This document shows positions 1-44,521 of a stretch of 64,000 nucleotides of DNA, in pieces. The position numbers were made by a program, and so were the translations under genes. The DNA is taken from assembly GCA_947652115.1 (NCBI GenBank), contig OX393568.1, positions 8,765,521-8,829,520 on the forward strand, in the 5' to 3' direction. Position 1 is the stretch's first letter. Each line of letters begins with the position of its first letter. Source of the stretch: Blastomussa wellsi. Taxonomy: Eukaryota > Cnidaria > Anthozoa > Scleractinia > Plerogyridae. Below the pieces are notes generated by a model, which saw only the letters and a program-made list of their open reading frames with translations, had not been told where the DNA came from and did no database searches.

Positions 1-182
1 ACTGGTTGGATGGCGAAAGATGCATTCCTTTCTGGACCGTGGTTGTAAAACAGTCGTAAACTCCGAACAATTTATTTTGTCCTTTGTGTTTTAATAAAAA
101 AAATCTAATATTTTGTGTAATAATTCTATCACTGTTTCAACCGCACACTAGGTAAAATTAACAAGTACAAATTTTGCCTTAA

Positions 183-254
183 CTCCCCGGCGGGGAATCG
201 AACCCCGGTCTCCCGCGTGACAGGCGGGGATACTCACCACTATACTACCGAGGA
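183..254 (-). tRNA. tRNA-Asp-GTC: tRNA-Asp(GUC), unit 1, canonical
   Basis: A 72-nt cloverleaf read on the minus strand. The acceptor TCCTCGG pairs with CCGGGGA (one G-U) with G as discriminator. The anticodon stem is CCCGC/GCGGG with loop CTGTCAC, giving anticodon GTC. The T-stem is CGGGG/CCCCG with loop TTCGATT, so the polymerase III B box is intact. The variable arm has four bases, as usual for tRNA-Asp. No intron. This copy is the reference against which the other Asp copies are described. Confidence 0.96.
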
Positions 255-793
255 CCCATGTATAGACATGTTAACGTCGCACTGTGCATTATGATCTTAT
301 CCGGCAGAACAAGACAAAGAATTAGCAATGAAAGTATTTTCAGATCAAACTGCTTCTCACGGTCAGTTATTATGCAGTATTGACATAAAGAAATTCCTGT
401 ACAGTGCTGATCAAAATAAAACAACGTACCAAATAACTCAACACCTTCCAATAGCGAAGCGCGCGAACTCGGAAAATAGAGAATCAAATTATTGTACCGC
501 AGCGAGACTTGAAAACATCAGCGTATTGTGGAAGAAATAGAGTCAATTTAGACGCAGTTTACATTTGCAAAGTCTTTTAGGAAAACCGGCTTTCGCGCTT
601 GAGGAAATCTTGACAATCGTCCGCCATTCCTGTTTGTTTGTCAGACTCTTGTCTTGATGTCACTCGCCTACTTCGCTATTCCTCGGGCTCACCATCTCTT
701 AAAACTTTCGAAAAATGAAACGTTCTCGCTTCCTGAGAGAGGACCAAAGAATGTAGCTCTAAAAAGGTTCAATATAAAGGCGTGGCTCATGCT

Positions 794-866
794 TGTTTCC
801 GGCAGGACTCGAACCTGCTACCTTCCGCGTGTGAGGCGGACGTGATAACCACTACACTACGGAAAC
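794..866 (-). tRNA. tRNA-Val-CAC: tRNA-Val(CAC), unit 1
   Basis: A 73-nt cloverleaf on the minus strand: acceptor GTTTCCG/CGGAAAC with discriminator A, anticodon stem TCCGC/GCGGA with loop CTCACAC (anticodon CAC), and T-arm GCAGG-TTCGAGT-CCTGC. This copy alone has A instead of C at position 48, the base that normally makes the Levitt pair; otherwise it equals the array consensus. Confidence 0.9.
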
Positions 867-1581
867 CACGCAGCGATTCAAACTTAAATCAATATTTGAC
901 CAGTTACTTTCAAAATCATTAATGCATCACGATTTTCATTTTTCCGTTTTTGTTTGGGAAATGATTGTTTCCAGTGCAGAGCGTAATCTCATTTTGTTTC
1001 CAGAAGTCTTGAGAAAGTCACCGTTCCTTTGACAGCCGAGTCCAATTTGGTTTTCAGAGGAATGTTCTCAATTGGACAGCATGTATTCCTATTACATATA
1101 CTAATTCTACATGTTGCAACAAAGGTAAAGCATACGATTATTTTTTCACTGTCATGAGTAGTTTTCTTTTTTTTTCTAACTACGTTAATGATTCTTTTGT
1201 TTTGGAAAAGTAAAATAATGAATTTCTAAAAAGTTGATTCACCTAACCAGAGGGACAGCAGAGAAATATACACGAAAGCTGATTCAAAGAGTATATTTTT
1301 AATACCAAATCTGCCAATTTGAAAAACAATAAGGTTGGTATAGCATGCAACACGTTGCTCTGGCTGTCCAAAATCGGTCACTTTGTAAGGAAATAAGATA
1401 CTGGTTGGATGGCGAAACATCCATTCCTTTCTGGACCGTGGTTGAAAAACAGTCGTAAACTCCGAACAATTTATTCTGTCCTTTGTTTTTTAATAAAAAA
1501 ATCTAATATTTTTTATTATAATTCTATCACTGTTTCAACCGCACACTAGGTAAAATTAACAAGTAAAAATTTTGCCTTTAA

Positions 1582-1653
1582 CTCCCCGGCGGGGAAACGA
1601 ACCCCGGTCTCCCGCGTGACAGGCGGGGATACTCACCACTATACTACCGAGGA
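1582..1653 (-). tRNA. tRNA-Asp-GTC: tRNA-Asp(GUC), unit 2, A58 changed
   Basis: Same as unit 1 except that the T-loop reads TTCGTTT, so conserved A58 is T. This weakens the T54-A58 pair and the B box. Function is doubtful. Confidence 0.8.
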
Positions 1654-2193
1654 CCCATGTATAGGCATGTTAACGTCGCACTGTGCATTATGATCTTATC
1701 CGGCAGAACAAGACAAAGAATTAGCAATGAAAGCATTTTCAGATCAAGCTGCTCCTCACGGTCAGTTATTATACAGTATTGACATAAAGAAATTCCTGTA
1801 CAGTGCTGGTCAAAATAAAACAACGTACCAAATAACTCAACACCTTCCAATAGCGAAGCGCGCGAACTCAGAAAAAAGAGAATCAAATTATTGTACCGCA
1901 GCGAGACTTGCAAACATCAGCATATTGTGGAAGAAGTAGAGTCAATTTAGACGCAGTTTGCGTTTGCAAAGTCTTTTAGGAAAACCGGCTTTCGCGCTTG
2001 AGGAAATATTGACAATCGTCCGCCATTCCGTTTTGTTTATCCGACTCTTGTTTTGATATCACTCGCCTACCTCGCTATTCCTCGGGCTCACCATCTCTTA
2101 AAACTTTCGAAAAATGAAACGGTCTCGCTTCCTGAGAGAGGACCAAAGAATGTAGCTCTAAAAAAGGTTCAATATAAAGGAGTGGCTCATGCT

Positions 2194-41875: not shown

Positions 41876-41948
41876 TGTTTCCGGCAGGACTCGAACCTGC
41901 GACCTTCCGCGTGTGAGGCGGACGTGATAACCACTACACTACGGAAAC
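41876..41948 (-). tRNA. tRNA-Val-CAC: tRNA-Val(CAC), unit 25, canonical
   Basis: Identical to the reference. It is the partner of the Asp gene at 33701-33772 and was separated from it by the inserted elements. Confidence 0.95.
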
Positions 41949-42663
41949 CACGCAGCGATTCAAACTTAAATCAATATTTGACCAGTTACTTTCAAAATCA
42001 TTAATGCATCACGATTTTCATTTTCCCGTTTCTGTTTGGGAAATGATTGTTTCGAGTGCAGAGCGTAATCTCATTTTGTTTCCAGAAGTCTCGAGAAAGT
42101 TACCGTTCCTTTGACAGCTGAGTCCAATTTGGTTTTCAGAGGAATGTTCTCAATTGGACAGCATGTATTCCTATTACATATACTAATTCTACATGTTGCA
42201 ACAAAGGTAAAGCATACGATTATTTTTTCACTGTCATGAGTAGTTTTCTTTTTTTCTAACTACGTTAATGATTCTTTTGTTTTGGAAAAGTAAAATAATG
42301 AATTTCTAAGAAGTTGATTCACCTAACCAGAGGGACAGCAGAGAAATATAGACGAAAGCTGATTCAAAGAGTATATTTTTAATACCAAATCTGCCAATTT
42401 AGAAAACAATAAGGTTGGTATAGCATGCAACACGTTGCTCTGGCTGTCCAAAATCGGTCACTTTGTAAGGAAATAAGAGACTGGTTGGATGGCGAAAGAT
42501 CCATTCCTTTCTGGACCGTGGTTGTAAAACAGTCGTAAACTCCGAACAATTTATTTTGTCCTTTGTGTTTTAATAAAAAAAATCTAATATTTTGTGTAAT
42601 AATTTTATCACTGTTTCAACCGCACACTAGGTAAAATTAACAAGTAAAAATTTTGCCTTTGAA

Positions 42664-42735
42664 CTCCCCGGCGGGGAATCGAACCCCGGTCTCCCGCGTG
42701 ACAGGCGGGGATACTCACCACTATACTACCGAGGA
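42664..42735 (-). tRNA. tRNA-Asp-GTC: tRNA-Asp(GUC), unit 26, canonical
   Basis: Identical to the reference. Last Asp gene of the array. Confidence 0.95.
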
Positions 42736-43274
42736 CCCATGTATAGATATGTTAACGTCGCACTGTGCATTACGATCTTATCCGGCAGAACAAGACAAAG
42801 AATTAGCAATGAAAGTATTTTCAGATCAAACTACTTCTCACGGTCAGTTATTATGCAGTATTGACATAAAGAAATTCCTGTACAGTGCTGGTCAAAATAA
42901 AACAACGTACCAAATAACTCAACACCTTCCAATAGCGAAGCGCGCGAACTCGGAAAATAGAGAATCAAATTATTGTACCGCAGCGAGACTTGAAAACATC
43001 AGCGTATTGTGGAAGAAGTAGAGTCAATTTAGACGCAGTTTTCGTTTGCAAAGTCTTTTAGGAAAACCGGCTTTCGCGCTTGAGGAAATCTCGACAATCG
43101 TCCGCCATTCCGGTTTGTTTGTCCGACTCTTGTCTTTATGTCACTCGCCTACTTGGCTATTCCTCGGGCTCACCATCTCTTAAAACTTTAGAAAAATGAA
43201 ACGGTCTCGCTTCCTGAGAGAGGACAAAAGAATGTAGCTCTAAAAGCGTTCAATATAAAGGCGTGGCTCATGCT

Positions 43275-43860
43275 CTTTTCCGGCAGGACTCGAACCTGCG
43301 ACCTTCCGCGTGTGAGGCGGACGTGATAACCACTGCACTACGGTAGACTAAGAGCAGTCCCTTTTTTCTTAGTCCGTCGAGTGCGAAGCGAAAAAAATGT
43401 CCGCAGGAAACCCTTAGCCTACGATTGAAGTCTCCGTAAAAATAGTTTTTAAATTACATCTGCAAACTGTACAACATTGATATAAGGCCGGCCTTCCCTT
43501 CACTTGCTCTTGGGAGTTTTGCTGATCGAAGATATCCCTTTTGCTGCGTTCTTTTTGTTGCGTTTTCCTCTGCCGAAATCTGTTTTCATCTTTGAAACTC
43601 CCAGGGTGGCGACGACAAGCAAAATTGACAGGACGTCAAGATAAGGATTAAATCATTGGGCGCGGTTAATTCAATTTGAAATTAACACCAAAAAATCACT
43701 CTGCCGTGAAAAGTCAAACACTGTCGCTTAGGCGGTAGGTCCTCTTTTTCGGGCCTCGCCGTGTGGGCGCGTCTCCCAGGTTTCTTGCGGCCATTTTTTC
43801 GCTTCGCGCTCGACGGACTAAGAAAAAAAGGGACTGCTCGTAGTCTAACACTACGGAAAC
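43275..43860 (-). pseudogene. tRNA-Val of unit 26 split by a MITE
   Basis: The 3' and central parts (43275-43343) are present, with the acceptor ending in A instead of C72. The 5' acceptor strand is separated from them by a 505-bp insertion at 43344-43848 that duplicated 8 bp of the tRNA (CACTACGG). The gene is destroyed. Confidence 0.88.
43344..43848. mobile_element. 505-bp MITE inserted in tRNA-Val
   Basis: Terminal inverted repeats of roughly 45 bp starting TAGACTA, including GAGCAGTCCC and CTTAGTCCGTCGAG, flanked by the 8-bp direct repeat CACTACGG. An 8-bp duplication fits hAT, P or Merlin-type transposases. No coding capacity seen. The interior holds GC-richer unique sequence. Confidence 0.88.
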
Positions 43861-44521
43861 CACGCAACGATTCAAACTTAAATCAAATAATATTTGACCA
43901 GTTACTTCCAAAATCATTAATACATCACAATTTTCATTTTCCCGTTTTTGCTTGGGAAGTGATTATTTCCAGTGCAGAGCGTAATCTCATTTTGTTTCCA
44001 GAAGTCTTGAGGAAGTCGCCGTTTAATTCCGTCAGATTCAAACCCATCTTTTTAAAAAACTCATTTGTCTTTACATTACCACTTTTCGTCTGAGGAACGA
44101 ATCATTGGCCTACATTCTTGGTAATATAGGACTGAAGTTGACAAGTGATAGAAGCTGGCTTATAAAGTCACAACAGCTGCTGTGCAATCTGCACAGGACA
44201 TATGCCAAGACTGTGTCTCAGTGAATCGTTGTTTTGGGTGAATAATTGAAAAATTTATCTTTGCGTTCAATAATATCATTTAAATAACCTTCGTTCCTAA
44301 CAAACCTACATGCAGACTTTTATCCTAACACTAACTGGAACAGTTTTTGTCTTCTTCATTTTCACTTTTATCACTTTTTTCCTTTTCCTATTTCCTATCT
44401 TAAATTACTTGAATCATTAATCATTATAAACTTAACTACTTGGTGTTCTCGTGTTGTCTGGATTTTATCTTTAATTATATAGCAACATTGAAATGGCATC
44501 AACAGAAACTCGGAAAAATCC

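Follow-up and report, generated by a model that had tools for sequence, protein, structure and literature searches.

A tandem array of tRNA-Val and tRNA-Asp genes with a higher-order repeat and many altered copies in the stony coral Blastomussa wellsi

Introduction

The transfer RNA (tRNA) gene repeat of Xenopus laevis, ~3.2 kb in length, is a kilobase-scale animal tandem repeat with several tRNA genes. Its unit is larger and holds more genes than that of the array described here, which was found in the stony coral Blastomussa wellsi, in a stretch of 64,000 nucleotides (contig OX393568.1, positions 8,765,521 to 8,829,520; hereafter the window), and repeats one tRNA-Val and one tRNA-Asp gene head to tail. 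Among cnidarians, tandem tRNA arrays have been described in Hydractinia and Nematostella (PMC11067881); the same paper states that other cnidarian genomes yielded no RNA tandem arrays, and its text leaves open whether more contiguous cnidarian assemblies would show them. The hosts there are not stony corals, and its passages on these arrays mention neither a higher-order repeat nor damaged copies, both of which are present in B. wellsi. Large tRNA clusters of fifty members and more are described for Nematostella and teleosts, with mostly unlike neighbours in Nematostella, in the relevant part of a survey that counts genes ≤1 kb apart and does not describe a unit structure (PMC2888827).

Outside the cnidarians, Entamoeba likewise has tandem units, which hold at most 5 tRNA genes and in the authors' view are homogenised most likely by concerted evolution (PMC2652664). 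The passages on that system describe short tandem repeats between the genes, whereas Tandem Repeats Finder reported no array of period up to 500 within positions 1-44023 of the window; they also report no clear evidence of nonfunctional copies, whereas most Asp copies here are off consensus. The human 1q23.3 tRNA variable-number repeat is, as here, a large animal tandem repeat including tRNA-Asp, with 98% identity between units and 9-43 units per allele; as described in the sections concerned, its GC-rich, CTCF-binding 7.3-kb unit carries five tRNA genes on both strands, whereas the coral unit measures 1.4 kb, has 39.5% GC and carries two genes on one strand (PMC4041453). An initial annotation of the window, made from its letters alone, had taken kilobase-scale tRNA repeats to be known from only a few lineages; with tandem arrays in print for Hydractinia and Nematostella (PMC11067881) and the human 7.3-kb repeat (PMC4041453), this was too strong.

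The coral locus is thus a real tandem tRNA-gene array of an already published kind, and what distinguishes it is its higher-order structure and its many altered copies. Among the matches listed in the literature search, no title or abstract opening concerned a tRNA array in a stony coral, and none joined tRNA arrays to higher-order repeats. An exact spacer 29-mer gave 0 matches in general genome contigs and 0 in viral contigs, neither of which is an animal-genome collection. We consider it likely that the locus is a nuclear tandem array of RNA-polymerase-III genes, amplified head to tail, turned over by recombination and probably contributing to the cell's tRNA pool.

Results

A 1.4-kb Val-Asp unit is repeated head to tail

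The array and the members used below as reference are as follows.

1..44023, minus strand: tandem array of the 1.40-kb Val-Asp unit, with 24 complete units, 1 interrupted and 1 partial, together with edge fragments; left edge open
183..1581, minus strand: unit 1 (Asp to Asp), example unit
183..254, minus strand: tRNA-Asp(GTC), consensus sequence
2194..2266, minus strand: tRNA-Val(CAC), consensus sequence
5780..7128, minus strand: unit 5, 1349 bp, Val gene part deleted

ARAGORN identified 49 tRNA genes in the window, namely 26 Asp(GTC) and 23 Val(CAC), all on the minus strand from 183 to 43347, and Infernal/Rfam at the gathering score identified 51, adding two Val copies (13333 and 23120) missed by ARAGORN; no RNA family other than tRNA reached the gathering score in the window. 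Including the part-deleted Val of unit 5, in which a 50-base deletion takes 33 of the 73 Val bases from the gene's 5′ end, there are 52 tRNA loci, 26 for each tRNA. The tRNA-Asp/tRNA-Val array of at least 26 units of 1.4 kb, with both genes on one strand, that the initial annotation had proposed was therefore borne out: 22 of the 24 complete Asp-to-Asp units measure 1398-1400 bp (the other two 1402 and 1349 bp), some 7.6 kb of inserted DNA (33782-41344) divides unit 25, and only part of unit 26 is present. On the minus strand, the consensus unit runs through a spacer of 715 bp, the 73-bp Val gene, a spacer of 539 bp and the 72-bp Asp gene. The proposed right end also held, i.e. no 20-mer of the array consensus occurs in 44024-64000 and the array stops at 44023, while on the left it does run in from the window's edge. 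Within this span the array's own sequence is interrupted by the 7.6-kb insertion and by a small inverted-repeat element (43344-43847).

A chance origin is excluded by 24 complete kilobase-scale copies. With head-to-tail units that each bear tRNA genes, and with spacers nearly identical among units, the locus has the make-up of the kilobase-scale tandem tRNA arrays of the Entamoeba and Hydractinia type. A further RNA gene within the unit was sought at E values up to 5 on 28090-33790, where all non-tRNA matches fell below their families' gathering scores.

Units are related through a seven-unit higher-order repeat

The array had been called homogeneous, which holds in that its units are 95-100% identical and needs qualifying in that pairs of the 24 complete units differ at 0 to 67 positions of the 1.4 kb (substitutions plus gap openings). 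The initial annotation contained neither the higher-order repeat described in this section nor the mobile-element insertions and damaged copies described further below.

7129..16915, minus strand: higher-order block A (units 6-12), the match with block B running on leftwards as far as 7043
16916..26703, minus strand: higher-order block B, units 13-19
43848..44023, minus strand: last array piece, 176 bp; identity of 92.6% with the most similar of the 24 complete units

Over 9.79 kb, pairwise comparison of blocks A and B gave two substitutions and a single 1-nt indel (4 differences by multiple alignment). Smaller recent duplications were observed as well, one of a single unit (units 22 and 23, 1 difference) and one of two units inside the block (units 9-10 and 11-12, 1 and 4 differences). 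The mean substitution difference was 26 for adjacent units and climbed with their separation, reaching 40-43 for units 18-20 apart, with a dip to 19.8 at a separation of seven units. At the right edge, unit 25 was 98.3% and unit 26 97.2% identical to the complete unit (of 24) that resembled it most, ahead of the lower value of the last piece. Divergence rising toward the array edge together with recent duplications is as unequal crossing-over predicts, and suggests recombination as the engine of turnover.

The near identity of the two blocks also bears on the idea that haplotype mis-assembly or over-expansion produced the length of the array or, failing that, its second 9.8-kb block, which we judge improbable. 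The three differences in 9.79 kb would suit such an artefact, as would the near absence of private substitutions in the block units (1 in 14 units); however, outside the blocks 9 of 10 complete units have private substitutions, 1 to 18 in each, so that the whole array is not one unit copied by software, and a smaller two-unit duplication lies inside the block.

Most tRNA-Asp and many tRNA-Val copies are altered

Both consensus genes fold as complete tRNAs. Each of the 26 Asp loci is followed by a run of at least four T, which starts 12-27 bases downstream; for all 25 Val loci examined this distance is 29-30 bases. The combination expected of an RNA-polymerase-III gene, a complete tRNA gene (which would include its internal promoter) with a downstream T run, is present in the consensus copies only. 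Among the Asp loci, 5 of 26 were at consensus (units 1, 3, 21, 25 and 26), 5 were altered with all stem pairs kept and 16 showed disruption of a pair or loss of a base. Of the five altered loci that keep their pairs, four carried C55A and the fifth A57T; we take C55 to be C56 in standard numbering, an invariant T-loop base and part of the B box, and A57 to be A58. The Val loci were at consensus in 13 of 26 cases, the remainder consisting of 1 locus that keeps its pairs, 11 with a broken pair and 1 part deleted. The Val of unit 26 was placed among the broken-pair loci because the called gene runs into an inserted element, and it also carries T13C. A 13:22 mismatch is present in the Val consensus itself, so mismatches at this pair may be tolerated.

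Block A has 7 copies of each gene; every Asp copy and 4 Val copies were off consensus, and the same alleles recur in block B. The above counts thus include duplicated alleles, and with block B excluded the consensus is found in 5 Asp and 10 Val loci, out of 19 each. Most gene copies are reported as intact for Entamoeba, a feature that the Hydractinia passages do not treat as defining, whereas here the consensus is kept in 5/26 Asp and 13/26 Val loci; as neither a broken pair nor a departure from consensus is proof of lost function, the altered copies may have lost function, and membership in the general kind of tandem tRNA arrays stands.

These states bear on the possibility of a dosage array, in which copy number would be maintained by selection for much tRNA-Val(CAC) and tRNA-Asp, as with ribosomal DNA. 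That both consensus genes fold completely and are followed by T runs, and that Val keeps its consensus in 13 of its 26 loci, would be expected of it, whereas the 21 Asp and 13 Val loci off consensus, many of them altered at stem pairs or in the T loop, would not; we regard selection for dosage as a possible, if doubtful, account.

Genes vary as much as spacers

Across the 24 complete units, 23 of the 145 positions in genes and 140 of the 1254 in spacers were segregating (Fisher p 0.10), giving a gene-to-spacer variability ratio of 1.42 (95% interval 0.91-2.21). By this measure the genes of these units show no greater conservation than their spacers, which also speaks against selection for dosage. 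Decay through methylation was considered and set aside, since the observed/expected CpG ratio was 1.12 in the unit (0.89 in the longer and 1.18 in the shorter spacer) and 0.89 in the flank, i.e. the unit is not depleted in CpG relative to the flank.

An alternative at the other extreme is a satellite-like repeat, spread by recombination alone with the tRNA genes as largely silent passengers. The neutral look of the gene variation, the altered alleles multiplied in the seven-unit block and a higher-order structure as found in satellites are in line with it; yet a complete consensus is kept for two different tRNAs, each with downstream T runs, and CpG depletion is absent, making this alternative unlikely.

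Variants were further divided into old ones, carried by units 2, 4 and 5 (1582-7128), and young ones, confined to the other units, a split chosen after the unit distances had been seen. Sixty-nine variants were confined to units 2, 4 and 5, with 23 of them common to two or three of these units; 5 of the 69 fell in genes, as did 0 of the 16 variants common to these and other units, compared with 20 of the 87 confined to other units (5/69 versus 20/87, Fisher p 0.008). Set against a length expectation of 10.4%, the deficit of old variants in genes, a point that leans in favour of dosage selection, was not significant (one-sided binomial p 0.27 for 5/69 and 0.11 for 5/85). An excess of young variants in the tRNA genes, as transcription-linked mutation might produce, appeared at first count (20/87 versus 9.0 expected, binomial p 0.0005, circular shift 0.023), shrank without units 10, 12, 17 and 19 (13/74, p 0.04, shift 0.07) and was gone when unit 20 was removed as well (9/64 versus 6.6 expected, p 0.22, shift 0.26). 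Because it rests on a few heavily altered units, this excess is not claimed, and neither hypermutation nor constraint is claimed from the counts of old and young variants. Cautiously read, single copies would drift freely while the consensus of both genes stays a complete tRNA.

A spacer stretch between Val and Asp (unit positions 952-1151) was considered as a conserved element, having 11 segregating sites versus ~23 expected; as the lowest 200-bp window it had a permutation P of 0.078. By analogy with the human 1q23.3 tRNA repeat, for which the relevant section proposes such a role (PMC4041453), the array might mainly be an insulator at a chromatin boundary, and the somewhat lower variability of this stretch would fit; with that P value not significant and no other support in this analysis, we give the boundary role very little credence.

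Mobile elements interrupt the array

Three mobile elements interrupt the array, one of them nested in another.

33781..41178, plus strand: outer mobile element, 13-bp terminal inverted repeat TTTATAACATAAC
34262..39691, plus strand: BEL/Pao-type long terminal repeat (LTR) retrotransposon nested in the outer element, Peptidase_A17 in a 1509-aa open reading frame (ORF)
41179..41344, no strand assigned: 166-bp unplaced sequence between the outer element and the resumed unit
43344..43847, no strand assigned: 504-bp element with ~70-bp inverted ends, inside the last Val gene; target duplication of 8 bp, CACTACGG

The outer element was inserted 8 bp upstream of the Asp gene in unit 25, and its 13-bp terminal inverted repeat compares with a longest inverted match of 12 in 1000 right-side shuffles. 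It contains weak matches to DUF3504 (25.4 bits) and Phage_integrase (24.7 bits), below the Pfam cut-offs of 29.7 and 27.1, in a recombinase-like gene that is apparently frameshifted, and a neighbouring ORF (39746-40225) had no profile match. Matches of this kind, to tyrosine recombinases, prompted a comparison with Cryptons, which carry a tyrosine recombinase gene; a terminal inverted repeat is not expected of a Crypton. The two LTR stretches of the nested BEL/Pao element (34262-34558 and 39395-39691) are 297 bp each and 99.7% identical. In the unplaced sequence, a 32-bp fragment (41215-41246) corresponds to TTAA together with the 3′ part of the tRNA-Asp gene, oriented against the array, and no other clear match to the unit was found in 41179-41344. 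This fragment, which lies outside the inverted repeat of the outer element, was considered as a possible attachment site of that element.

The target duplication of the 504-bp element is CACTACGG on the plus strand, at gene positions 5-12, or alternatively 9 bp with one mismatch. Because the element interrupts that gene, the ARAGORN call at 43275-43347 is a Val gene running into the element's end. Dada transposons, as characterised in the passage concerned, have target duplications of 6-7 bp, often at tRNA nucleotides 8-13 (PMC8869645), and the 504-bp element, with its 8 bp at positions 5-12, was not assigned to them. Nor was kinship of this element with a Merlin-like element of the right flank (~51.5-53.6 kb) supported, its terminal sequence occurring nowhere else in the window at ≤3 mismatches. 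Targeting of insertions to tRNA genes was likewise considered and not adopted: the outer and 504-bp elements lie within 10 bp of or in a gene, with a chance of ~0.02 in a post hoc test with n = 2.

The flank to the right of the array carries further repeats and a gene-like sequence:

47164..49545: inverted pair of 0.6-kb repeats, 86% identical and ~1.2 kb apart
49914..50576, minus strand: DUF3504 recombinase-type ORF (46 bits), adjoining a 21-bp tandem repeat at 50602-50734
51455..53560: IS1595/Merlin-type transposase ORF (51967-52986; PF12762, 52 bits) between inverted 41-bp repeats
60473..61195: arfaptin-like gene, possibly a retrocopy, in which a single open frame covers almost the entire domain

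Among the best 120 of 1535 matches to the arfaptin-like ORF (query 60518-61195), the best named ones were from stony corals, with identities of 82% for Orbicella faveolata, 79% for Desmophyllum pertusum, 78% for Porites harrisoni, 76% for Montipora and 69% for Stylophora, followed by the sea anemones Actinia (61%) and Nematostella (65%). This accords with a scleractinian host, for which one protein, perhaps from a retrocopy, is weak evidence.

Discussion

On the explanation that we prefer, a stretch of DNA bearing a single tRNA-Val and a single tRNA-Asp gene would have been amplified head to tail, and the copies would have been turned over by unequal crossing-over and gene conversion in one-, two- and seven-unit steps. 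Block duplication would have multiplied damaged alleles as readily as intact ones. Since the genes vary as the spacers do and damaged alleles were multiplied, selection, if there is any, would act on the gene pool rather than on single copies. Because its consensus genes are complete and have terminator-like T runs, the array probably contributes tRNA-Val and tRNA-Asp to the cell's pool; expression of its genes and a benefit to the host may be supposed.

Some points weigh against this explanation. The higher-order repeat is near-perfect enough that it may be an assembly error. Units 2, 4 and 5 are divergent (41-67 differences from the others, gap openings counted) despite their internal position, a pattern that is not accounted for by a simple edge model; they may represent an older lineage or an import from another array. 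The low share of old variants in genes, though not significant, hints at an older constraint on the genes.

Tentatively, the locus can be pictured as a satellite-like tRNA array in which higher-order repeats arise by recombination, which also spreads defective alleles more quickly than selection can purge them, such that only a minority of dozens of tRNA-Asp genes would work and the rest would possibly yield variant tRNAs; we offer this as a conjecture that could well be wrong. Predicted tRNAs number 6,951 in the Astrangia genome (PMC12005167) and 5,938 in that of Porites harrisoni, with 674 high-confidence after filtering (PMC13040556); such thousands of predicted coral tRNAs would fit arrays holding many altered copies, arrays themselves not being mentioned in the passages that give these numbers. 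For Acropora, the passages on tRNAs contain no such number (PMC11577847).

The locus probably adds a stony coral to the animals with kilobase-scale tandem tRNA arrays, and bears on the question, posed in the Hydractinia paper's remarks on its arrays (PMC11067881), of what more contiguous cnidarian assemblies would show. As its copies carry distinguishing variants, such as C31G and the T-loop changes in Asp and the C50 variants in Val, a direct test becomes possible of how many redundant tRNA copies are transcribed, and the array would let selection on a gene pool under concerted evolution be tested.

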